Of a DNA stretch of 64,000 bases, positions 13,101 to 29,879 are shown in pieces (positions within the stretch are counted from its first letter, which is position 1; each line of letters starts with the position of its first letter). The translations under genes and the position numbers were made by a program. The notes beneath the pieces are model-generated. The model saw nothing but the letters and a program-made list of their open reading frames with translations, did not search any database and was not told where the DNA came from. The stretch is from Streptomyces huasconensis (GTDB lineage: Bacteria; Actinomycetota; Actinomycetes; Streptomycetales; Streptomycetaceae): NCBI GenBank assembly GCA_004010275.1, contig RBWT01000015.1:1-64000 (forward strand). Reading direction: 5' to 3'.

Positions 13101-13696
13101 TCAGCCCACGCCCGCGCCGACCGCCTCGGGGATGCGGAAGGGCTTGCCGCAGCCGCCGCACATGATGGGCGCCTGGGCGAGCACGGACGGCACGACGCGG
13201 ACGTTGCGCCCGCAGTCGCAGACGGCCTTCACGCGCACGCCGCCTCCGAGGAGCCGTGCCGGGCCGCCGGGCCCCGGAAGCTGCGGGCGGTGTCCGCCGT
13301 GGTCGCCGCGGTGTGCGCCTTCAGGGCGCGCTGGAGCCGTTCGATCGTCGGGCGGTACCGCCGCTTGGCCTCGGGGTTGAGCGTGACCAGGGAGAAACCG
13401 CTGCTCGGATGCGGCTCCTCGGGATGGTCGAGGCCCAGCTCCTCGGCGATCGCGAGGAATCTGCGGTTGTGGTACCGGCCTGCGCGTGAGGTGTCGCGTA
13501 CGCCGCGGGAGGCGGCGATGCCATGGACTGCCTCGTGAAGCAGTCGCTCGAAGGAGAGCTCGGCGCCACACGCGGACGACGACTCTCCGATCAGGGATTC
13601 GGGCGCGGCAAGGTCGGGCAGCTCGGGGTGGTGCCGCTGAATGTCGGCCCACGCCTGTGCCAGCTCTGCGGCGAGAACAGGTGGTGTCGTGCTCAC
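13101..13696 (-). CDS. SprT-like zinc metallopeptidase-fold protein with C-terminal zinc ribbon (one frameshift)
   Basis: About 198 residues once one base is restored near 13245. The first part has a zincin-type HExxH motif ([17 protein letters not shown]) and the block [18 protein letters not shown], as in SprT-like proteins. The end has two close cysteine pairs (CDCGRNVRV and MCGGCGKPF), a zinc ribbon. The GTG start at 13696 ([14 protein letters not shown]) is chosen because homology-like sequence begins there. SprT relatives include DNA-protein crosslink proteases, but short plasmid- and element-borne versions have no known role. It is isolated between rpsP and a decayed proS, in what looks like an accessory insert. 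Confidence 0.7.
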
Positions 13697-13969
13697 GTCG
13701 TGACAACGAGCCGGATGCCCCGGGGGTTCCATTCCGGGGCATCCCAAATAATTTGCACGTACCCGTCAGTTGCCGTTGATGCGTCCGGACGAGGGCGGGT
13801 GCGCTGATCTGCGGAGAAGCCTCGCAGCTCGCATCAAGCCGGTACGTAGCGGCGCGTACGCCCCGGCGCGTAGAGAAAGCATGCACGCCGGGGCTTGTGT
13901 TGCCTCTATCGCGTACGAGACGAAAACGGGCGCCCGCCGCCGGAACCGCGCCCCTCAGGGCCACCACGG

Positions 13970-15381
<1,412 letters not shown>

Positions 15382-15409: not shown

Positions 15410-16267
15410 ATGACACCAACACTCGTGCAGTCGCACCTCCCTCACGCGGGCACCGCGCCCCGCGTGAACCTCGGTGCACGCGCGCGTGACTGGGCGGAGA
15501 TCCAGGAACGGATGCTGGTCCCGCTCTATGAAGCGGTGTACGAACGACTCGACGTGGGCGACGGCACCCGGCTGCTCGGCCTGGGCTGCGGCTCCGGGCT
15601 CGCCCTGCTGATGGCGGCCTCCCGGGGCGCGACGGTGACCGGTGTCGACCCCTCGGCGCCCGAGCGGCTGGCGCTGGCACGCAGACGGCTGCTGCCGGAC
15701 GCCGCTCCGGAGGCGGGGGCCGGCGCGGCGCGGCTCGTCGCAGGCGGGCCCGCGGACGCGGCGGGGCCGGACGTGCCCGCGTACAACCTCGTCACCGCGT
15801 TTCAGCCGATCGGCTGTATGGCGGGCGACGCCGAGGGGCTCTCCGGCCTCCTGAAGGCGGCGGCTCCGCTCACCGACCGGGGGACTCCGGTGGTGCTCGC
15901 CGGATGGGGCCCTCCGGAGCGGTGCGCCACGTCAACGGTCATGAGGGTGGCGACCAGGCTCGCCGATCCGATGCGCAGTGCGGGCAGTTGGCGCCCCGCG
16001 CTGCGGGACCGCCTGGAGGAGGTCGCCCAGCGGGCGGGGCTCAAGCCGGACGGCTCCGGCCGCGTCGCGTGCCCGTTCGGGTACGCGGACGTGGAGAGCG
16101 CGGTGCGGGGGCTGCTGTCGACGGGCCTGTTCGACGCGGCGGTGGGCGCGACGGACAAGGCGCAGGTCGACAAGGAGCTGACGGAGGCGCTGCATCCGCA
16201 CCGGCGGCACGACGGGACGGTGTGGATGCCGAACGTCTTCCGGTACTTGATCGCGCGTACGCCTTAG
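15410..16267 (+). CDS. SAM-dependent class I methyltransferase
   Basis: A 285-residue methyltransferase. ATG 15410 (MTPTLVQSHLPHAG) is preferred because the open frame upstream shows no conserved sequence. Motif I is LLGLGCGSGLALL with the acidic strand end TGVDPSAPE; the region AYNLVTAFQPIGCM would be motif IV. The C-terminal half resembles Streptomyces UbiE-like proteins of unknown substrate. It ends convergently with the polyketide synthase, the two stops overlapping by 4 bp (16264-16267). A link to the polyketide is possible but not shown; similar genes occur beside ftsH/ffh in streptomycetes that lack this PKS, as I recall. Confidence 0.8.
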   Translation: MTPTLVQSHLPHAGTAPRVNLGARARDWAEIQERMLVPLYEAVYERLDVGDGTRLLGLGCGSGLALLMAASRGATVTGVDPSAPERLALARRRLLPDAAPEAGAGAARLVAGGPADAAGPDVPAYNLVTAFQPIGCMAGDAEGLSGLLKAAAPLTDRGTPVVLAGWGPPERCATSTVMRVATRLADPMRSAGSWRPALRDRLEEVAQRAGLKPDGSGRVACPFGYADVESAVRGLLSTGLFDAAVGATDKAQVDKELTEALHPHRRHDGTVWMPNVFRYLIARTP

Positions 16268-19200
16268 CCGCACGTCACTTCGGCCGCCGGTGACGGGCTG
16301 CTGCCCGGCAGGCCGAGGCGGAGCAGCACCAGATGCGACACGTCGGTGATGGTGCCGCCGCTGCGCAGCAGCTCCAGCGGCGGGATCTCGACGTCGAAGC
16401 GGGTGCGCAGGGACACCAGCATCTCGGCGAGCATGAGCGAGTCCAGTCCGTACTCGTCGAGCCGGCGGTCGTGGTCGAGGTCCTCTTCGTCCATGTGCAG
16501 TACACCGGCCAGCAGGTGCGCGAGCGTCCCGGCGACGGCGCGCAGGGCCTCCTCCGGGCTCATCGCGGCCAGCGCCGCCATGATCTCCTCGCGGGAGTGG
16601 CTTGCCTCGTCCATGTGTTCGGGGAGCAGTGTCGAGCAGCGGGGCACCGCGAGGGACGGCAGGAGGTTGCGCAGCCGGGCCCAGTTGTACCGCCCGATGC
16701 CGGCCACCTCTGTGCCCTGCGCGACGAGTGGCTCGGCGGCCGCGAAGGCCTCACGCGGCGAGACGGGTTCGATGCCCACCGAGGTGAGTGCCCCGGTCAG
16801 TCCGTTGCGGGCGACGTATCCCGTCTCCCCGATGGCTCCCCAGGCGATGGCCTGTCCGGCGGCTCCCGACCGGCGGCGGCGCCGCGTGAGCGCCTCCAGC
16901 CAGAGGTTGGCCGCCACGTAGTTGGCCTGCCGGATGTTGCCGAGGAAGGTCGTGCCGGAGGAGTACAGCAGGAAGAGGTCCAGTTCCCGGTCGGCCAGGA
17001 GCTGGTCCAGCACGGCGGCGCCGGCCGTCTTCGGGGCCAGGGCGGCGGCGAACCGTTCGTCGGTGAGTTCGCCCAGTGTGTCGTCCTCCAGGTGCATCGC
17101 GCAGTGGACGACTCCGCGCAGCGGGTGCCCCCCGGCGTCGATGCGTGCGATGACTTCCCGTACGGCGGACGTGTCGGTGACGTCGGCCGCGTACGCGGTG
17201 GCCCGCACGCCGCGTGCGGCCAGTCCGCCCAGGACCGTCTCCCCCTCGGGGGAGGCGTCGCCGCGCCGGCTCATCAGCGCCAGGTGCCGTGCGCCCCGGT
17301 CGGCCAGCCACGCGGCGCTCGCGGCACCGAACCCGCTCAGGCCCCCCGTCACCAGGTAGGTGCCCGCGGGGTCCAGGGAAGGCGCCTGCGCCCGCCGCTC
17401 CACGGGCACCTGCTCGTCCAGCGGGTCCATCGCCACCACGACCTTGCCGACGTGGCGGGAGTGCTGCATGAGCTGGAACGCCTCGCTCACACGGGCCGCG
17501 GGGTAGACGCTGTGCGGCAGCGGGCGGTAGGACCCGTTCCGTACGCGCTCGGTGACGTCCGCGAAGAGTTTCGCTCCTTGGTCGGGGTCGAAGGCCAGCG
17601 TGGTGAGGTCGACCCCGAAGAAGCTGATGTTGTTGCGGAAGGGCCGCAGCAACAGGGGCTTGTTCTCGTAGATGTCACGCTTGCCCAGTTCGATGAACCG
17701 GCCACCGGGGCGCAGCAGTTCCAGGCTGCGGGTGATCGCCTCTCCGGCCAGGGAGTTGACGACGACGTCGACCCCGCGCCCGTCGGTGACCTCCGTGACC
17801 CGGGTGGCGAAGTCGAGGCTGTGGGAGTCCAGGACGTGCTCGACGCCCAGGGTGCTCAGCAGTTCCCGCTTGGCGGGGGTGCCCGCGGTGGCGATCACGC
17901 GGGCGCCGCACAGGTGGGCGTACTGGAGGACGGCGAGGCCGATGCCGCCCGCGCCGCCGTGCACCAGGACCGTCTCACCGGCCCTGAGCCGGGCCAGGTG
18001 ACCGAGGCTGTAGTGGACGGTGGAGAAGACGACGGGCAGGGTCGCGGCCTCGGTGAAGCTCATGCCCCGGGGCATGTGTCCGAGCGCCTGGGCGGCGGTC
18101 AGGGTGTGGGAGGCCAGGGACGCCGGCGCGAGGCCGAACACCCGGTCGCCGGGCCGGAACGCGGTCACGTCGGGTCCGACGGCGGTCACCACTCCGGCGC
18201 ACTCCAGGCCGAGCCCGACCTCGGTGTACGTCCCTTCGATCGCCTCGGCCGGCAGCAGACCGACCGCCTGCATCATGTCGCGGTAGTTCAGCGCGGCGGC
18301 CCGTACGGCCACGGCCACCTGGCCCGGCCCCGCGGGCACAGCGGTGTTCTCGACCCATGCCAGGCGGTAGGAGAGTCCCGGGGAGCGCACCTCCAGCCCG
18401 AAGGGTGCCTCTCCCCCGGCCGTCACCTCCGTATGGGCGGCGGGCAGTTCCCGCTCCCGGGGCACGAAGCGTCCGCCGCCCGCGGTGATCGCCACTTCCG
18501 TCTCGGCGTCGTCCGTGAGCAGTTCGCGGGCCAGGCGGCAGGCGTCGGTGGCGGTCCGGCCCGAGCGGTCCAGCGAGACGGCGCGGAGCGACAGCCGCGG
18601 TTCTTCGTTGGCGAGGGTGCGGGCGATGCCCCACACCGCCGCGTCGTCGGTCACCTCGGCCCGCTCCGGGTGCGGGAGCGCGCCGCTGGGCCGGGTCACC
18701 AGGGTGAGCGCGGCCCGTGCGGTGCCGTCGAGGGCCGAGCAGGCGCGGCTGACGGCCCGCATGAGCGCCGCGCGCCGGGTGGTGAGCGACACGGTTGCGG
18801 CGGGGCCGTCGGCCGGCGCTTCACCGGGATCGCCGGGTACGTCGCCGAGGATGACGCATACGTCCGCGCCTTCCGTCCCGAGGACCCGCTCCCAGTCGAC
18901 GGTGTCCTCGTCCGTCACGTACACCGCTGCCGGCGCACCGTCCCCGTCGGGCGGCAGGAGGTCGGCGACAGCCCGGGCCAGGGCCAGTTCCCCGGCGCTC
19001 TCGGCGGCGATCACCCGAGGGCGGCCGGTCGTGGTCACCGGCGGCGCCGGTGGGGTGACGGCGCCGCGCGGAGTCGCGGCGAGCAGCACGGAGAAGTGGT
19101 CCCGGCATTCGGTGGCGTCGTCGCCGGTGCGTACGACATCGGTGAAGCCGCACCGGTCGAGCAGTTCCGGCCAGCAGCGGTGAGGTGGGGCGCTCGGCGT

Positions 19201-22200
19201 GGTCGGCACGGTCCCAGAAGGAGTCCATGGTGCCGAAGTAGGGGGCGAGGACGGCCGTCTCATGGCTCTCGACCGCCAGGAGCAGGCCGCCGGGGGTCAG
19301 GAGGGTGGCGACGCGGCGCACCGCTGCTGCGAGGTCCTTGGCGGTGTGCAGGGCGTTGGCGGCGATCACCACGTCGAAGCCCGCCTCGGGCAGCCCCTGG
19401 CCGGCCGGGTCGGCGTCCAGGTCGAAGGTGCGGTAGGTGACGAAGTCGTAGGCGGCGAAGCGCCGTTCGGCGCGGGTGAGGAACCCGGGTGAGACATCGC
19501 TGTAGACGTAGTGGGTGCGCTCGGCGGGCAGGAGGGGGAGCAGGGCGGCCGCCATGCCGCCCGTGCCCGCCCCCACCTCCAGCACGCGCAGGGGCCGGTC
19601 CTGGGGCCAGGCCCGTACGGTCTCCTGAAGGAGTGCCTGTGCGAGACGGTTGTGGAAGCGGCTGATGACTGCGGTGTCATAGAGCTGCTCGATGTCCGCG
19701 AGGCTCCCGTCGCCCGCCATGGAATCCGTGAGGTCGTCTCCGTCGGGGACCAGGAGGCCCCGCGTACGGCTGATGGCCAGCCGGCTCTCGGCGGAGTACC
19801 GGGGGAACTCCAGGGTCAGCGCGCGCAGGAGTTCCTTGTCCTCGAACTCGGGCCGGGTCAGCCGCAGCCGTCCGCCCCCGGCTTCCTCGGCCAGGCCGTG
19901 GCGGATCATCTCCGCGCCCATCACCTCGGCGAACGGCGCGCGCGTGGGTCCATCCCGGCGGTGACGAGGTCGTCGGTGCCGAACGCGACGCGGTGGTCGG
20001 GTACGAGGGCGGCGACGGCGGTGGCGTACCGGTGGGCGGCGGCTTTCCTGAAGAGGACGGCGAAGCGCTCGTAGCCGGCGTCGTGCCAGTCGGCGCGCAG
20101 GCGGCGATGCGGTCGGCGGTGGCCGCGAGGATGTCCCGGGGAGTGACCGGCGGCCCGTCGCCGGGCCAGGGCGGCGCACCCGGCGCGGCCCGCATGGTGG
20201 TGTGGTGCACGGTCAGGGCGGTCCGGTGGGCGCCGGCCAGTCTGCGCAGCCGGCAGCGGAGCAGCTCGACGCAGACCCGCCCCTCCTCATCGGTCACCAC
20301 GATGTCCCAGCAGGTCTCGGCCGTCGTGAAGGACCGCCGGCGGACGTGGACCGACCCGCGGGAGGCGGGGGTACGCCATACGCGGGCGGAGCCCACGGCG
20401 GCGGGCAAGTAGACCGTGCCGCCCGCCACGGCCGCACGGATCAGCGGTGCTCCGGCCTGGAGGGCGCCGTCCAGCAGGGCGGGGTGGGCCTCGTACTCCT
20501 CGCTCGGGGCCTCGTGCCGGTAGGTGGCCACCACCTCCCCGTCCCCCACGCGCAGTTCGCGCAGCACCTGGAAGGCGGGACCGTACTGGAGGCCGGCGCG
20601 GTCCACCGCGTCGTAGTGTTCCGCGCCGTCCACGACGCGCGGGCAGCGTGCGCGGACGGCGGCGAGGTCGATGTCCGAGGGGGCGCGGCCGAGCAGGGCG
20701 CGCACTCTGGCCCGGACATGCGCGCGCGGCCGGGCGGTACGCGCGTCGGTGCTGGTGATGCTCACCACGCCGTCGTCCGGTGTGACGGCCAGCTGGACGC
20801 GTACGCTGCCGGCGTCCGCCCAGGGCACGACCAGCGGGCGGGTGATCTCCAGGCAGTCGACTTCCGCAGGACCGTCGAGGGTGAGGCGCCCGGCGGCCAG
20901 TGCCATCTCCACGTAGGCGGTCGCCGGCACCACGACCGAGCCCGCGAAGCCGGGGGTGTCGAGCCACGGGGTGAGCGCCGGTTCGATGGCGCCCTGCCAG
21001 GTGGGGACGGGCGAGGGGAGCCGCTCGCCGAGCAGCGGGTGGTCCAGGTGGCCGGAGCCGCTGGTGCGCAGCCAGGTCTGCGGGGTGCCGTTCCAGTGGC
21101 GTTCGCGTTGCCAAGGGTAGGCCGGAAGGTCCGCCACCCGACCCTGACGCGGGAAGTGCACGCTCCATTCCACCTCGGCGCCCTGCGCCATGAGGGTGGT
21201 CATGGCGTGGTCCACGGCCTCGGGTCCGCTCGCGTCCCGGCGCAGGGTCGGCGTCACCGCGACGGTGTCCCGGGTGCGGGAGCGGGCGACGCGGTGCAGG
21301 TAGGCGCGGAGGACGGGGTGCGGGCCGATCTCCACGAGGATGTCGGCGCCGTCCTCCAGTGCCTTCTCCGTCGCCCCGGCGAAGAGCACGGGCTCCCGTA
21401 CGTTGCGCCACCAGTAGGAAGCGTCCAGGGCGGGGCCCTCGATGCGGTCACCGGTCACGGCGGAGTACAGCGGCAACCGGGCCGTGCCGGGGCGCAGTTG
21501 GGACAGCTCCTGCCGCAGGGGGCACTCGATCGGGTCCATCACCGCGCTGTGGAAGGCGTAGTCGAGGTCCAGCTCTTTGCAGGTGACTCCCTTGCGGGTC
21601 AGCTCGGCGAGGAACGCCCGCAGGATGTCCGTGGGGCCCGCCACGGTCACGTCCTGTCCGCTGTTCACCGCCGCCACCTCGACGCCGGGGAACACGGCTG
21701 CTTCCTTGGCCGCCTCGTACACGGGGAGCGCCACGGCGGCCATCCGGCCCGTTCCGGCGGTGGCCGCCTGGGTGCGGCTGCGCGCGACGATCACGTGTGC
21801 CGCCTGGTCCAGGTCCAGCGCGCCGGCCACAAAGGCGGCGGCGACCTCCCCCACGCTGTGGCCGAACACGCCGTGCGGCACGACGCCCTGGTCCCGCAAC
21901 ATGCGTACGAGACCGACCTGCACGGCGAACAGCAGGGGCTGGGCCACCTCGGTCAGCGCGAGACGCGACCGCTCGGCCGGCGCCGACAGCTCGTCGGTCA
22001 CCGACCAGCCGAGCCGGGGGGCCAGCGCCGCGTCCACTTCCTCGACGGCGGCGCGGAAGGCGGCGCTCCCGGTCAGGAGGTCGGCCGCCATGCCCGGCCA
22101 CTGTGAGCCGTTGCCGGAGAAGACGAACGCGATTCTCCCCCGGGCCACCGCCTGGGAGGCGGTGGCGTCGGCACGGTCTCCCCGCTCCTCCTCACGCGGC

Positions 22201-23834
22201 GCGGGCATGAACGGTGACGGGCGGCCGGGTTCGCCCGCGTGGGGCTCCGCGGAAGGCGTGGGGCCGGCGAGTGCCCGCAGCTACCGCGCGGCGGCCCGCG
22301 GTCCGGCCAGGACGACCGCGCGGTGCGGGTGGGCGCCGCGCCGAAGGCAGGCGGTGTAGGCGATGTCGTAGAACGCGTGTGCGGTGGCCGTGTCGAGCCG
22401 GTCCGCCATGCGCGCGGCTGCCTCGGCCAGCGCCTTGGGGGTACGCGCGGACACCACAACCGGGAGCGGCCGCACGTCCACCGCGGCCTCGCGAGGGCCG
22501 CTCCCCTCGCGGCGCGGCGGCGGCATGGTGGGCGCGGTGGTGAGGACGACGTGGGCGTTGGAGCCGCCGAAGCCGAAGGAGTTGACGCCGACGACGGGAC
22601 GCTCGACGGCGCCGAGCGGCACCGTGCGGTCGGCGGTCACCAGGTTCAGCCCCGCGAAGTCGATGTCGGGGTTGGGCGGGGAGGCGTGCAGCGACGGCGG
22701 GATCGTCCGGTGGCGGAGGACGAGCAGGGCCTTCAGCAGGCCCGCGATCCCCGAAGCCGGCTCCAGATGCCCGATGTTGGTCTTGACCGACCCGATCGGC
22801 AGCACCCCGGTGGTGCGGCGGCGCCCCAGGGCGCCCCCGATGGCCCGGCACTCCAGGGGATCGCCGACCAGCGTGCCCGTGCCGTGCGCCTCCAGGTAGA
22901 CCAGTTCGTCGGGGAGGACGCCCGCCTGCGCGTACACCGCCTTCAGCAGGTCTTCCTGCGCCCGCGCGTTGGGCAGCGCGAGCCCCATCGTCCTGCCGTC
23001 GCTGTTGGAGGCGCTGGCGAGGACGACCCCGTGAATCCGGTCGCCGTCCGCCATGGCGTCCGTCAGCTTCTTCAGGACGACGAGCCCGCCGCCCTCCGCC
23101 CGTACGAAGCCGTCGGCCGCCGCCGAGAAGGAGGCGCACCTGCCGCTCGGCGACAACATGGCCGCCTGGGAGAACCCCACGTAGTGGTAGGGGCTGAGCA
23201 GTACGTTCACGCCCGCGGAGAGCGCCACGCGGCTGCTGCCGTCGAGCAGGGTGCGACAGGCCCGGTCCAGCGCCACCAGAGACGAGGAGCAGGCGGTGTC
23301 GACGGCCATGCTCGGCCCGTGCAGGTCGAAGTGGTGGGAGAGCCGGTTGGCGGCGATCGAGGAGGCGCCGCCGGACATGGTGTAGGCGTTGATCGTCTCC
23401 GGCGTCATCATCTGGAGGCCGCCGTACGAGGTGTCCGACACCCCTACGTAGACCGCCGCGTCGGTGCCCGCCAGGCGCTCGGGGGCGATGCCCGCGTCGT
23501 CCAGCGCTTCCGCGGCCAGCTCCAGCAGCAGCCGGTGCTGGGGGTCCATCCGGCTCGCCTCTTTCGGGGCGATGCCGAAGTAGGCGGCGTCGAAGCCGGT
23601 GACGTCGTCGAGGAAGGCCCCCGCGGCGGTGTAGCTCTTGCCGGGGCGCGGCATCGCGGTGTCGACGAACCGGGACGACTCGAACCGGTCTTCCGGGATC
23701 TCGCCGACCACGTCGCGGCCCTGTCGCAGCGCGTCCCAGAGCTGATCCAGGTCGTGGATGCCGCCCGGAAGGCGACATGCCGCCCCGACCACGGCGATGG
23801 CCCGCTCCGCTGGCGTCGCCTTGATGTCGTCCAT
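16264..23834 (-). CDS. Highly reducing iterative type I polyketide synthase (KS-AT-DH-MT-psiKR-ER-KR-ACP), frame broken
   Basis: One module of about 2520 residues read leftwards from ATG 23834 (MDDIKATPAERAIAVVG). KS (23.8-22.5 kb): VDTACSSSLVAL, EAHGTGT and NIGHLEPASG supply Cys-His-His. AT (22.15-21.15 kb): GHSVGE and DYAFHS, pointing to malonyl-CoA. DH (21.05-20.2 kb): the usual first histidine is not seen (WLDTPGFAGSVVVP), although HPALLDGALQ is present. C-methyltransferase (20.0-19.2 kb): LRVLEVGAGTGGMAAALL. A structural KR follows (19.1-18.4 kb, AAVWGIARTLANEEP). ER (18.4-17.4 kb): VHGGAGGIGLAVLQ. KR (17.35-16.7 kb): VTGGLSGFG, YSSG and QANYVAAN. ACP: YGLDSLMLAEML. No thioesterase is present. 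The frame slips near 22285, twice between 20180 and 19960, and near 19190. The product is unknown; a methyl-branched reduced chain is inferred. Confidence 0.9.
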
Positions 23835-24057
23835 GCACAACCTCCCGGGGAGAGGAACGTCTGTCGCGCCCGGCACGGCGGGAGTTCAGGCACGCGTCGG
23901 TTCGGGGCGCCGCTCAGGACCGGCGGGCGCGCGGGGTTCAACCGGCGCGCGCGGGCGGAGGTTGCGCGGGAGAGGACCGTTCACCCGGTCGCCGCAGCAC
24001 GGCTCACAGCGGGCCCTGATCCCCCGGCGCCCCGCTGAACCCGCAGGCCCGGCCGGG

Positions 24058-25995
24058 TCAGTGGGACCCCGCGGCCTTCCGTACGACCCCGGCGACCCGG
24101 TAGGCCTCGGCCTCCTCCAGGGTCTCGTTCGCCAGCAGCGCCGCGGCGAGGGCGTCCAGTTGGTCCCGGTGGTCGCGCAGCTGGCGGCAGGCGCTCTCGT
24201 AGCACTCGTCGACGATCCGCCGCATCTCGCCGTCGATCACATCCAGCGTCTGCGGGGCGGCCGACAGTCCGTACGCCTGCTGCGCGTCGCTCGGCAGGGC
24301 GGACAGGCGCCCCACGAGTTCGCTCATGCCCCAGCGGCCGACCATGCCGCGGGCGATGTTGGTGACCTGCTCCAGGTCGTTCTCGGCGCCGGTGGTGACG
24401 ACTCCGTAGACGACGTGTTCGGCGGCCATGCCGCCCAGGGCGCCGATGATGCGGCCGCGGAGGTACTCCTCCGTGTACGCGTACTTGTCGGAGTCGGGGG
24501 TCGACAGCGTGACGCCCAGGGCACGGCCGCGCGGCACGATGGTGATCTTGCGGACGGGGTCGGCGCCGGGCTGGAGCATGCCGAGCAGCGCGTGGCCGCT
24601 CTCGTGGTAGGCGGTACGCCGACGCTCCTCCTCCGGCATGACCAGCGGCCGTTCGGCGCCGAGCTGGACCTTCTCCATGGCTTCGGAGAGGTCGGATTGC
24701 GTGACCGTCTTCTTTTTGCGCTTGACGGCGATCAGGGCGGCTTCGTTGGCGAGATTGGCGAGTTCGGCGCCGGTCATGCCCGGTGTCGTACGGGCGACCT
24801 GCGCGAGGTCGACGTCCTCGGCCAGCGGGATGGTCCGCGTGTGGATGCGGAGGATGGCCTCGCGCCCGCCGCGGTCCGGGGGCGAGACGTTGACGACGCG
24901 GTCGAAGCGGCCGGGCCGGGTGAGGGCGGGGTCGAGGACGTCGGCGCGGTTGGTGGCGGCGAGCACGATGACGCCTTCCGCCCCCGAGAAGCCGTCCATC
25001 TCGGTGAGGATCTGGTTCAGGGTCTGCTCGCGTTCGTCGTGACCGCCCATGCCGCTGCCGCCGCCCCGGGCGCGGCCGATGGTGTCGATCTCGTCGATGA
25101 AGATGATCGACGGGGCGACCTTGCGGGCCTCGGCGAAGAGTTCCCGTACGCGCGAGGCGCCCACGCCCACGATCATCTCGATGAACTCCGAGGCGGAGGC
25201 CGAGAAGAAGGGCACGCCGGCCTCGCCCGCGACGGCGCGCGCGAGGAGGGTCTTGCCGGTGCCGGGCGGTCCGGCGAGCAGCACGCCGCGCGGCATCTTG
25301 GCACCCATGGAGCGGTAGGCGTCAGGGTTCTTGAGGAAGTCGACGACGTCGTTCAGCTCGCCTTCGACCTCGTCGATCCCGGCCACGTCCTCGAAGGTGG
25401 TCCGCTTCACCCCGGGCTCCAGTTCGACCGGCTTGGGCGGCGTCTTGCGCCCGAGCATGCCGCCACCGCCGCCCATGCCCGCGCTCATCCGGCGGGCGAT
25501 GAAGATCCACAGCACCACGAGAAGCAGCATCGGGGCGAGCGAGATGAGCAGGTTGGAGAGGAAACTCCGCTCCTGCACCACGGGCTCGGCGGTGACGGTG
25601 ACGCCATGTTTGGTCAGGTCGTCCCAGAGCTTGTCGTCGGCGAAGGCGGGCCGCTGGGTGAGGAACTTGGTGTAGTTCCCCTTCGCGTCGCCCGGCTTCT
25701 CCCGCTCCTTCTTGAGCTGCCCCTGGATCGCGTCGCCCTTGGAGTAGATCTTCGAGACATTCCCGGCATCGACCTGCTTGCTGAACTCGGTGTACGAGAT
25801 GGTCGGCTCGTCGCCGTCGTCGAAGAAGGACAGCACGAGGTTGGCGATGAGGTAGACGATCAGAGCCGTCAGGATGAGCCCGCCCCAGCCGCCCGGCATC
25901 TTCTTCTTCGGCGGCGGTGTCGGAGCGGGTGAGGGCGCGCCCTCGGAGCGCCACGGCTGATCGGGCGCCCGGCGCGGCGGCACAGGGTTGCTCAT
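24058..25995 (-). CDS. ftsH: ATP-dependent zinc metalloprotease FtsH
   Basis: A membrane-bound AAA protease that degrades membrane and regulatory proteins. The 645-residue frame is intact. After a Pro-rich cytoplasmic start come a membrane helix ([20 protein letters not shown]), an extracytoplasmic domain and a second helix ([18 protein letters not shown]). The AAA domain shows Walker [20 protein letters not shown], Walker [12 protein letters not shown] and the arginine-finger region TRPGRFDR. The protease zinc motif is [12 protein letters not shown] with a later Asp. A Gly/Met-rich stretch and [21 protein letters not shown] mark the linker. It lies next to ffh, as in S. coelicolor. Confidence 0.96.
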
Positions 25996-27682: not shown

Positions 27683-28366
27683 GGCGGTCGCGAATCCTCA
27701 GGTCTGGGGGCGGGCTGACAGGTCGCCTTCCAGAGTATCTGCCGCAGGCCAGTGCCCGGGGCTCCGGTCGGTTCTCCGGGCCCCGGGGGGGCCTTGCCTT
27801 GCCGGGAATGGATACCCGGCGGTATCCCCCACCCCGCCGCTCCGCGGCGGATGTCACCCACCCACCCGTTAACCGGCGTCGAGATGGCGGGGTAGGGAGG
27901 GTGCTCGTGACTCAGGGCTAGATGTCGGGGCCGGGCAGGCAGGAGCGCCCGTAGCTCAGGCGCCCATTACCCCGTACCGAGACCACCAGTCCGCCGCCCC
28001 GGGCAAGCAGGGGGCCCGTTGACCCGCGGCGAGGTCGCGGAGCGGGCAGCACAGCGAGCGACCACCACCCACGTGCCCCATGAGCCGAACCCGGCCCGCA
28101 GCCGCGTACGCGCCCGAGGGGACGTGGGGGTATGTGCGCGCGGAGCACAGTGGTGGTCATGACGGCCCCGAAGCAGCAAAGGGCCCGCGCCAAGATGGCG
28201 AGCACGGACATACCCCCGCGGCCCCGCCCCACAGACGAACCCATGGCGACCCCCGCCCCACCCCGGCCGCTCCAATAACCGCCTTGACACCACCTCACCC
28301 CCTCCCGCACATTTACCTGCGCCACACAATCTCTGCGTAACGCAGCTACACTAAAGGACTCCCCCT
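27683..28366. other. 684-bp region without a convincing gene
   Basis: Between the ffh start and the MFS start. On the minus strand this must hold the ffh promoter; on the plus strand the last 90 bp hold the MFS promoter. A minus-strand open frame (27918-28409) reads Gly/Arg/Trp-rich sequence without domain features, so I do not call it. In S. coelicolor I recall glnD upstream of ffh; no trace of it is visible here, which makes this stretch the likely junction of two distant chromosomal blocks. Confidence 0.5.
28333..28345. promoter_or_regulatory. Palindrome in the MFS promoter region, candidate MarR operator
   Basis: CTGCG-TAA-CGCAG is a perfect 5-bp-arm palindrome 22 bp before the MFS start. 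It lies directly before TACACT (28347-28352), which could serve as a -10 box. A TTGACA at 28283 is too far from that box and may belong to another start point. A regulator bound here would block transcription; the nearby MarR protein is the obvious candidate, by inference only. Confidence 0.4.
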
Positions 28367-29797
28367 GTGCTCCCGGCAACCGACCCAAAGACCACCACGC
28401 CCCCACCACCCCTCCCCGCCCGAAAACGCTGGGCCATCCTCGCCGTCGTCCTGGCCGCCGACATCCTCGACCTGGTCGACGCCACCATCACCAACATCGC
28501 CGCCCCCACCATCACCGCCGACCTCCACGGCGGCCCCGCCCTCGTCCAGTGGCTCGGCACCTCCTACGCCCTGGCCCTCGGCGTCCTCCTCGTCCTCGGC
28601 GGCCGCCTCGGCGACAAGTACGGCAGGCGCCGCCTCTTCCTCCTCGGCCTCGCCGGCTTCACCCTCGCCTCGCTCGTCTGCGGCCTCGCCCCCACCCCCG
28701 CCACCCTCGTCGCCGGCCGCCTGGCCCAGGGCGCGTTCGGCGCCCTGGTCATCCCGCAGGGCTTCGGCATCCTCGGCGCCACCTGGCCCCGCGAACACAT
28801 CGGCAAGGCCTTCAGCCTCTTCGGCCCGGCGATGGGCCTCTCCGCGGTCGGCGGCCCGATCCTCGCCGGCTTCCTCATCGACGCCGACCTCGGCGGCCTC
28901 GGTTGGCGCCCCATGTTCCTGATCAACCTCGTCCTCGGCGGCGCCGCGCTCCTCGCCGCCGCCCGCCTCCTCCCGAAGGACAGCGGCGACCCCACCACCT
29001 CCATCGACGCCCGCGGCTCCGCCCTGCTCGCCGCGACCATGCTCGGCCTGCTCTCCGGCCTCATCGAGGGTTCCGCGAACGGCTGGACGACCACGCCCGT
29101 CCTCCTGATCGCCGCCGGACTCGCGGCCTTCGCCCTCTCCTGCCACCGCCAGCGCACCGCCCCGAGCCCGCTCATCCAGCCCTCCCTGCTGCGCAACCGC
29201 GGCTTCACCTCGGGCCTGATCCTCGGCATCGTCTTCTTCGCCGCCGTCTCCGGCCTGCTCTACGTCATCTCGCTCTTCCTGCAACAGGGCCTCGGCCGCT
29301 CGCCCTCCGGCACCGCGCTCGGCCTGCTCCCCGTGACCGCCGGCATCGTGATCGCGTCGATCGCCTGCCACGGCCTCATCGGCAGGTACGGCCGCACGCT
29401 CGTCCTCGCGGGCCTGCTGATCACGCTCGCGGGCACCGGCGGCCTGCTGGCCGTGACGGCGATCTCCGGGACAGAGGCGAGCGGCTGGGTCCTGCCGGCG
29501 CCGCTGTTCGTCATCGGCCTCGGCATGGGCACCTGCTTCGGCACGGTGTACGACGTCACGATCGGCGACATCGCGCAGGAGGAGGCGGGCAGCGCGAGCG
29601 GCTCACTCAGCGCGGTGCAGCAACTGGCCAACGCGACCGGCGCGGCGGTGGTCACCACGGTGTTCTTCAAGACCGCGCACGCCGGGCAGGCCCACGCCAT
29701 GACGGTGAGCCTCACCGCGGTCGCGGCGGTCACGCTCCTGTGCTGCCCCCTCGTACGCCTGCTCCCCCGCAAGGCACGACCGTCGGAACACCACTGA
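28367..29797 (+). CDS. MFS transporter, DHA2 (14-TM drug exporter) family
   Basis: A 476-residue proton-driven exporter. The GTG start at 28367 is followed by a Pro/Thr-rich cytoplasmic start, then membrane helices through the whole length (about 14 by eye). Motif A is LGGRLGDKYGRRRLFLLG, and the DHA2-type early sequence LDLVDATITNIAAPTITADL is clear. The family pumps out antibiotics, dyes or antiseptics; the substrate cannot be told. It is convergent with a MarR-family gene across a small repeat block. The protein frame is intact. Confidence 0.92.
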   Translation: MLPATDPKTTTPPPPLPARKRWAILAVVLAADILDLVDATITNIAAPTITADLHGGPALVQWLGTSYALALGVLLVLGGRLGDKYGRRRLFLLGLAGFTLASLVCGLAPTPATLVAGRLAQGAFGALVIPQGFGILGATWPREHIGKAFSLFGPAMGLSAVGGPILAGFLIDADLGGLGWRPMFLINLVLGGAALLAAARLLPKDSGDPTTSIDARGSALLAATMLGLLSGLIEGSANGWTTTPVLLIAAGLAAFALSCHRQRTAPSPLIQPSLLRNRGFTSGLILGIVFFAAVSGLLYVISLFLQQGLGRSPSGTALGLLPVTAGIVIASIACHGLIGRYGRTLVLAGLLITLAGTGGLLAVTAISGTEASGWVLPAPLFVIGLGMGTCFGTVYDVTIGDIAQEEAGSASGSLSAVQQLANATGAAVVTTVFFKTAHAGQAHAMTVSLTAVAAVTLLCCPLVRLLPRKARPSEHH

Positions 29798-29879
29798 ACG
29801 CGGGGGGGGGACAGCCCAGCAACACTGAACGCGGGGGGGACAACCCAGCAACACTGCACGCCGGGGGGACAACCCAGCA
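29792..29879. repeat. Three tandem ~30-bp repeats between MFS and MarR genes
   Basis: Three successive units (31, 29 and 28 bp) share the frame CACTGAACGCG-Gn-ACAACCCAGCAA. They differ mainly in the length of the G run (9, 7, 6) and in a few bases. The first unit includes the MFS stop codon. They lie between two convergent genes. The variable G run suggests slippage or sequencing noise; a terminator role is possible but the units do not form clear hairpins. Confidence 0.8.

Follow-up and report, generated by a model that had tools for sequence, protein, structure and literature searches.

A single-module, methylating type I polyketide synthase inserted beside ftsH in Streptomyces huasconensis, and the release-enzyme neighbours of its actinomycete relatives

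A stand-alone type I polyketide synthase (PKS) gene was analyzed in 64,000 nucleotides of Streptomyces huasconensis (GCA_004010275.1, contig RBWT01000015.1, positions 1 to 64,000; this whole stretch is called the window). The gene occupies 16264..23834 on the reverse strand and encodes, in four reading-frame pieces, one module with the order ketosynthase (KS), acyltransferase (AT), dehydratase (DH), C-methyltransferase (MT), structural and non-catalytic ketoreductase half (psiKR), enoylreductase (ER), ketoreductase (KR) and acyl carrier protein (ACP), with no thioesterase. It is a member of a large actinomycete family of single-module PKSs with an MT domain. The preferred interpretation is an iterative reducing PKS that makes a methyl-branched acyl chain, which other proteins acting in trans would remove by reduction or acyl transfer. 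As a whole this statement is judged only a little better than even; confidence is far higher in the single-module, methylating, reducing nature of the PKS than in the proposed mode of release.

Domains were located with Pfam and by motif search; all lie on the reverse strand. The KS (22683..23804; PF00109, E 1.6e-85) carries the motifs DTACSSS, EAHGTGT and KTNIGH. The AT (21174..22127, E 1.5e-78) has GHSVGE and YAFH and is of the malonyl type, as initially annotated; YAFH is HAFH in the ortholog of Streptomyces sp. G44. The DH (20223..21041) retains its Asp motif while the catalytic His motif is missing as assembled. The MT proposed for the chain is present at 19172..19933 (PF08242, E 3.1e-21), and its S-adenosylmethionine (SAM) motifs VLEVGAGTGG and YSDVS are intact here, as they are in G44. 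Downstream in the chain are the ER (17434..18330, HGGAGGIG), the KR (16828..17364, E 3.9e-57; TGGLSGFG, YSS and NY) and, as the last domain, the ACP (16330..16524, E 7.4e-13; YGLDSLM). In all, 12 of the 13 motifs sought were present in the PKS pieces. The ATG start at 23834 and the gene end both agree with the reading frames. Pfam over 16264-23834 detected no thioesterase, in line with the earlier claim, and no extra domain at either end; docking elements were not sought separately.

The interval between MT and ER was unrecognised by Pfam. An AlphaFold model of this region, made from 36 family sequences with G44 as the first, had a pLDDT of 92.6 and was compared with solved structures using Foldseek. 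It matched the structural half of PKS ketoreductases, including DEBS module 1 and MAS (best E ~1e-5, TM 0.63-0.70). The predicted psiKR (18455..19025, approximate bounds) is therefore real, and together with the Pfam domains it bears out the single-module order. For the MT domain, searched as a profile of 3 sequences, the closest solved structure was the CurJ MT, followed by others that included fungal PKS MTs.

The spread of the family was determined with the MT region as query. Among 61 genomes of the same genus, own genome included, 10 matched at E <= 1e-50, that is 9 of 60 others, and the next tier of matches began at 1e-38. Matches in the nine other genomes lay in open frames of 2535-2714 codons. 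The plan had been called rare in Streptomyces; at 9 of 60 genomes it is not. From a collection of species genomes the best 80 of 234 relatives were kept, giving 79 loci, and one Streptomyces megaplasmid locus was added (80 loci). These came from Streptomyces, Nonomuraea, Nocardia, Saccharothrix, Actinomadura, Kitasatospora and other genera, and 69 of the 80 had one frame of 2400-2800 codons from stop to stop.

A KS tree was prepared from 90 rows, of which eight were removed: five second KS hits in Ole loci, the partial row of the PKS on contig C460 (replaced by a two-piece row), L086 as partial and L072 as another KS. Five loci with no KS hit of at least 280 aa (L037, L071, L085, L087 and L109) and the own-genome loci L001 and L003 were not included. 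The final 82 rows were 76 family members, MAS, CurL (a modular PKS) and four other KSs of the own genome. A branch with SH-aLRT 100 separated all 76 family KSs from the six reference KSs; the window and G44 KSs were joined at 99. The tree was built by a 'quick' method, with a long-branch warning and few references, none of them fungal and four of them own-genome KSs whose type is not established; it thus shows separateness from those references and not deeper origin. Within this small reference set, the KS did not group with modular KSs, in keeping with the initial annotation, and stood apart from CurL and from the four own-genome KSs. Identity to the G44 KS was 57-95% for full-length family KSs and 39-47% for those four.

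Sequence kinship to known synthases was scored with phmmer. KS scores were 378 bits for CurL, 366 for Pks13, 348 for MAS, 298-339 for DEBS modules and 316 for LovB; the highest summed KS score, 625 for 7zma, came from a chain with two KSs of ~310 each. Against solved structures the whole chain matched MAS first (9d2z, 952 bits), and LovB (7cpx) reached 591. Since the LovB KS score falls within the DEBS range, and below CurL, Pks13 and MAS, a special kinship to fungal highly reducing PKSs (HR-PKSs) was not supported. Among the best 25 of 111 NCBIfam families, none reached its cut-off for the G44 ortholog; the highest were Pks2_ls1_myc (1118 of 2400) and PKS_plus_SDR (1104 of 1740).

Catalytic positions were examined in 71 full-length relatives. 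Conservation is complete (71/71) for Cys-His-His of the KS, Ser of the AT, His/Asp of the DH and Ser/Tyr of the KR, and the ACP serine is kept in 70. HGTGT is found in 71/71 and in the window PKS, and the methylmalonyl-type motif YASH in 0/71.

Proteins encoded near the PKS were clustered over the 80 loci, some of which are short, and clusters were named from single representatives. Thioester-reductase-like proteins were found at 21 loci, OleA at 18, OleC at 16, OleB at 15 and a thioesterase at five. An OleD-containing cluster covered 18 loci, two of them (L098, L100) outside Ole loci, and OleA occurred together with OleB, OleC and OleD at 15 of its 18 loci. Further clusters were MMPL transporters (14 loci), DUF6230 (11) and DUF6114 (10). 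Most release-type genes lay within 1 kb of the PKS (reductase 18/21, OleA 17/18, thioesterase 5/5); the neighbour distances obtained for L089, L095 and L069 are not real and arise from long stop-to-stop frames. The reductase scored above the cut-off of the Pfam Male sterility family. When release neighbours were mapped on the KS tree as six labels, 14 changes were required against a shuffled mean of 44.2, and a value as low was obtained in 0 of 200 shuffles; near-copies in the tree add to this clustering. L102 was labelled reductase from a tblastn hit and lies outside the reductase cluster, and L052, with both a reductase and a thioesterase, was labelled reductase. Release-type neighbours follow the KS tree, clade by clade.

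Two other features recur at these loci. A DUF6230 and DUF6114 pair is found near family PKSs at L032, L033, L041, L048, L051, L054, L058, L059, L083, L104 and others; a literature search on the pair returned one unrelated item only. The Streptomyces OleABCD loci L069, L070, L075, L080 and L081 also encode a stand-alone ACP (Pfam on one), and close to their ole genes lies a further, distant KS with 28-30% identity.

The initial annotation had left release open. For the window gene it is still so, while its relatives point to specific release enzymes, namely the reductase, OleABCD or a thioesterase. The window KS belongs to a six-row subclade (SH-aLRT 98) inside a 23-row group (89), which also holds an 11-row all-reductase clade. 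Within the subclade, L032 has a reductase 215 bp downstream of the PKS, a convergent MMPL gene overlaps the PKS end at L034, and at L035 a reductase follows another large PKS-like frame upstream (by eye). The same genome has two sibling PKSs, on contigs C445 and C460, the former a member of the all-reductase clade. Neighbours of the C445 PKS are a reductase, a WS/DGAT-type acyltransferase and MMPL genes; those of the C460 PKS are a reductase and WS/DGAT-type genes. At E <= 1e-15 the C445 and C460 genes are the only reductases of this kind in the genome. Release in trans by reduction or acyl transfer is favoured because of these reductase and MMPL genes beside near relatives, the release genes of the siblings, and the presence of only two such reductase genes. 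A DUF6230-like gene was also seen by eye on C460.

As proposed, the stand-alone PKS would load malonyl-CoA and act iteratively, with a methyl group from SAM presumably added at some or all rounds. The chain would be reduced and left as a methyl-branched fatty acyl group, of a length still conjectural, on the PKS's own ACP. Its removal in trans would most likely fall to a thioester reductase, a WS/DGAT-type acyltransferase or both, of the kind encoded at C445 and C460, and would give a fatty alcohol or a wax-type ester.

Several observations weigh against this reading, in particular against its release step. No release gene adjoins the window PKS, and no reductase was found near the G44 ortholog, G44 having been examined for reductases only at L031 and L055. 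L033, a near relative, has no recognised release gene in its flanks, and besides the window and G44 a recognised partner is lacking for 28 of the 76 family tree rows. The NCBIfam thioester-reductase model matched the reductase below cut-off (118 and 126 of 213 bits). The absence of a reductase near either ortholog and the frequency of solo copies would suit release of the same synthase by a general thioesterase or acyltransferase, to a free branched acid or into membrane or storage lipid, with the sibling loci uninvolved, and at five loci a thioesterase lies directly downstream of the PKS. Four of those five loci are placed elsewhere in the KS tree, L052 being the exception, and the recognised neighbours in the window subclade are a reductase (L032, L035) or MMPL (L034). 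General release is regarded as a real possibility, although not the expected one.

Partnership with an Ole system was considered for the window PKS and rejected. The OleA homolog of the own genome, on C420 (49% identical), adjoins ACP and FabF-like genes and no single-module PKS; of the four Ole proteins, only OleA was sought there. The region (L016:10139-15989) contains OleA-like, ACP and FabF-like KS genes, with diiron-oxygenase-like and MMPL genes on the opposite strand; names other than OleA were read from sequence and not from a family search. These genes are a separate lipid-type cluster of the same genome.

The condition of the window copy was assessed by comparison with the G44 ortholog, which is whole, in one open frame of 2521 aa (L031:6095-13660), at the same site. 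Identity is 95% over the DNA and 95% for the KS. Relative to G44 the window PKS has one in-frame TAG between KS and AT, where the reading frame is kept, and 3 or 4 gaps whose length does not divide by three; the count varies with the alignment setting. Two points here also count against the preferred interpretation: the DH histidine motif, present in 71/71 full-length relatives, is missing from the window PKS as assembled, with 9 mismatches to G44 in 75 bases, and the TAG could be real in this strain. If the TAG, the DH change or some of the frameshifts were real, the window copy would be a dying gene. Against this, G44 keeps the whole gene at the identity given, and the window's ffh and proS, each of which is intact in G44, are more densely broken. 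Frameshift-type gaps amount to 0.40 per kb in the PKS (3-gap alignment), 1.29 per kb in ffh (two gaps) and 5.67 per kb in proS (seven); there are none in ftsH, the convergent methyltransferase gene or trmD. A glnD row was dropped from this comparison, the window having no glnD match. The source assembly consists of 467 contigs at 91% completeness. Assembly errors are the simplest account of the TAG, the frameshifts and the DH change, and a dying gene is considered quite unlikely.

It is highly improbable that the PKS serves as one regular module in an assembly line with its remaining proteins encoded at other places: further KSs are indeed numerous in the genome (49 PF00109 matches, counting fragments), but single-module frames are found throughout the family, the KS clade is separated from CurL and from the other KSs in the tree, and no further Pfam domain is present at either end.

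The insertion site is bordered on the left by a second FtsH-type protease gene (24058..25995, reverse strand; NCBIfam FtsH_fam, 710 bits against a cut-off of 600), and on the right by a convergent SAM methyltransferase-like gene (15449..16267, forward strand; weak Pfam matches, below cut-offs). On nine of nine same-genus contigs ftsH directly precedes the convergent methyltransferase gene with no PKS match and 7-439 bp between the stop codons; the same two stop codons are ~7.8 kb apart in the window and in G44. Thirteen ftsH loci were found, of which four (L143-L146) are situated elsewhere and were excluded from this count. In one of the nine genomes with the PKS-free site, G016, a family PKS occurs on a different contig. 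Six named Streptomyces genomes with family members elsewhere were also inspected in their ffh regions. The methyltransferase gene follows ffh in 6/6, with no ftsH or PKS-size frame between; it does so directly in four, with one small frame between in L119 and three frames in L120. At E <= 1e-150 this FtsH had a match in 0/9 such named genomes. A convergent methyltransferase gene is thus found downstream of ffh or ftsH at all 15 PKS-free sites (6 + 9).

Because the same site is empty in other genomes and filled in the window and G44, the PKS is a one-gene insertion between ftsH and the methyltransferase gene in the lineage of these two strains. The stand-alone gene beside ftsH was thus correctly recognised. 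A search for the same arrangement in other genomes, which had been recommended, found it in G44, the only one of 79 family loci that is flanked by ftsH, ffh and this methyltransferase gene. The ftsH, methyltransferase and proS genes are old neighbours and not partners of the PKS. A partnership with any of the three was rejected, as they adjoin without a PKS in other same-genus genomes; a tie of the PKS to ftsH or the convergent methyltransferase, implied earlier, fails in particular because nothing of PKS size lies between these genes at other sites. The idea that proS is a self-resistance copy was dropped, since proS is at the same place in the PKS-free sites L118, L119, L123, L134, L136, L137 and L138. 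A promoter and terminator scan of 23700-24200 gave nothing.

Some further observations were made in the flanks. The proS gene (13960-15192), which is intact in L031 and broken in the window, is next to the convergent methyltransferase gene in some same-genus genomes and absent from that place in others. Upstream of ffh, at 27700-29800, no glnD match was obtained at E <= 1e-5 and an opposite-strand MFS gene is present instead; glnD is upstream of ffh in G44 and in most of the Streptomyces stretches fetched. Its absence here is due to either rearrangement or misassembly. An ARAGORN tRNA-Sec call of only 75 bases at 13288-13362 is probably false.

Among characterized systems, MAS and MAS-like PKSs are likewise stand-alone reducing chains without a thioesterase. 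MAS makes methyl-branched chains that are released by partner enzymes; it has no MT domain and takes its methyl groups from methylmalonyl-CoA. The window PKS differs in its malonyl-type AT and in-line MT, and the MAS KS is outside the family clade. Fungal HR-PKSs have the order KS-AT-DH-MT-psiKR-ER-KR-ACP. With those such as LovB the window PKS shares this order and the logic of malonyl-CoA plus SAM, but its KS has no special sequence kinship to LovB; the KS tree held no fungal sequence.

Iterative reducing PKSs in Streptomyces and fully reducing single-module PKSs in bacteria are already known (PMC5301196, PMC13389473, PMC3908369). The lagunapyrone iterative PKS (iPKS) of Streptomyces sp. MP131-18 is a highly reducing type I enzyme likened to the alternapyrone PKS; it is described as having no C-methyltransferase domain and is believed to act together with a type III PKS (PMC5301196). 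It and the window PKS are both reducing type I enzymes of Streptomyces, with an MT only in the latter; the two were compared by description alone. The POP-iPKS of fuelimycin and jawsamycin is a single iterative type I chain of Streptomyces that makes fatty acids and is stated to contain KS, AT, DH and ACP, the cyclopropanase, KR and (for fuelimycin) thioesterase being separate proteins (PMC13389473). Both systems thus use one type I chain, and in the window PKS the MT, ER and KR are in-line. The mono-modular PKS/fatty acid synthase (FAS) swf of sponge symbionts includes SwfA, with KS-AT-DH-ER-KR-ACP, a malonyl-type AT and a product given as unknown (PMC3908369). SwfA and the family are each one fully reducing module with a malonyl-type AT; SwfA has HATGT and, as there described, no MT, whereas the family has HGTGT and an MT. 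In marine bacteria Pfa synthase occurs with OleABCD, an experimental precedent, from Shewanella genes, for OleA as the connection between an iterative PKS/FAS and long-chain hydrocarbons (PMC6463001). Pfa synthase is a polyunsaturated fatty acid synthase of another plan, and the window PKS has no Ole neighbours; by analogy, the route from OleA to hydrocarbons may hold for the Ole-linked family members. A literature search gave no matching description of the family or of its links to the reductase and to OleABCD, which is weak evidence of absence as subscription papers were mostly outside the search.

The MT domain is altered in one part of the family. In a Streptomyces OleABCD clade of 11 rows (SH-aLRT 99; L009, L069, L070, L075, L078, L080, L081, L082, L092, L106 and L107) every member (11/11) shows erosion of the glycine-rich SAM motif and has lost the acid of the motif that follows, while the KS, AT, DH, ER, KR and ACP motifs examined are kept. 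L078 is from S. coeruleorubidus ATCC 13740. Among the 71 full-length members, the remaining 60 retain this acidic residue. Having an Ole partner is not in itself enough for the loss, since six other OleA loci (L046, L053, L065, L099, L104 and L105) keep the acid. The joint occurrence of MT erosion and OleABCD is a correlation in one clade and counts as a single evolutionary event.

A broader interpretation is put forward tentatively and is thought doubtful as a whole. The family would be a widespread, apparently undescribed actinomycete lipid platform in which exchangeable release partners (reductase, OleABCD or thioesterase) decide the fate of one single-module type of methylating iPKS. The MT would have been switched off under Streptomyces OleABCD, a free alpha-CH2 being required for head-to-head condensation. 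The window copy would supply half of a mixed wax ester and the sibling on C445 or C460 the other half.

In bacteria, the best-known synthases of methyl-branched polyketide lipids draw on methylmalonyl-CoA, as in the MAS type. The present family follows the fungal route, malonyl-CoA with a SAM methyltransferase in the same chain, and carries it in a single portable gene. Taken alone, the window gene is of modest value, as one solo family member. The relatives' release neighbours suggest how such chains become alcohols, waxes or hydrocarbons, and the neighbour pattern predicts release and product, with branched alcohols or waxes on the one hand and head-to-head hydrocarbons on the other. Loss of the SAM site in the Streptomyces OleABCD clade can be regarded as a natural experiment on the way release chemistry constrains chain chemistry, and the enzymes are of potential interest for branched oleochemicals.

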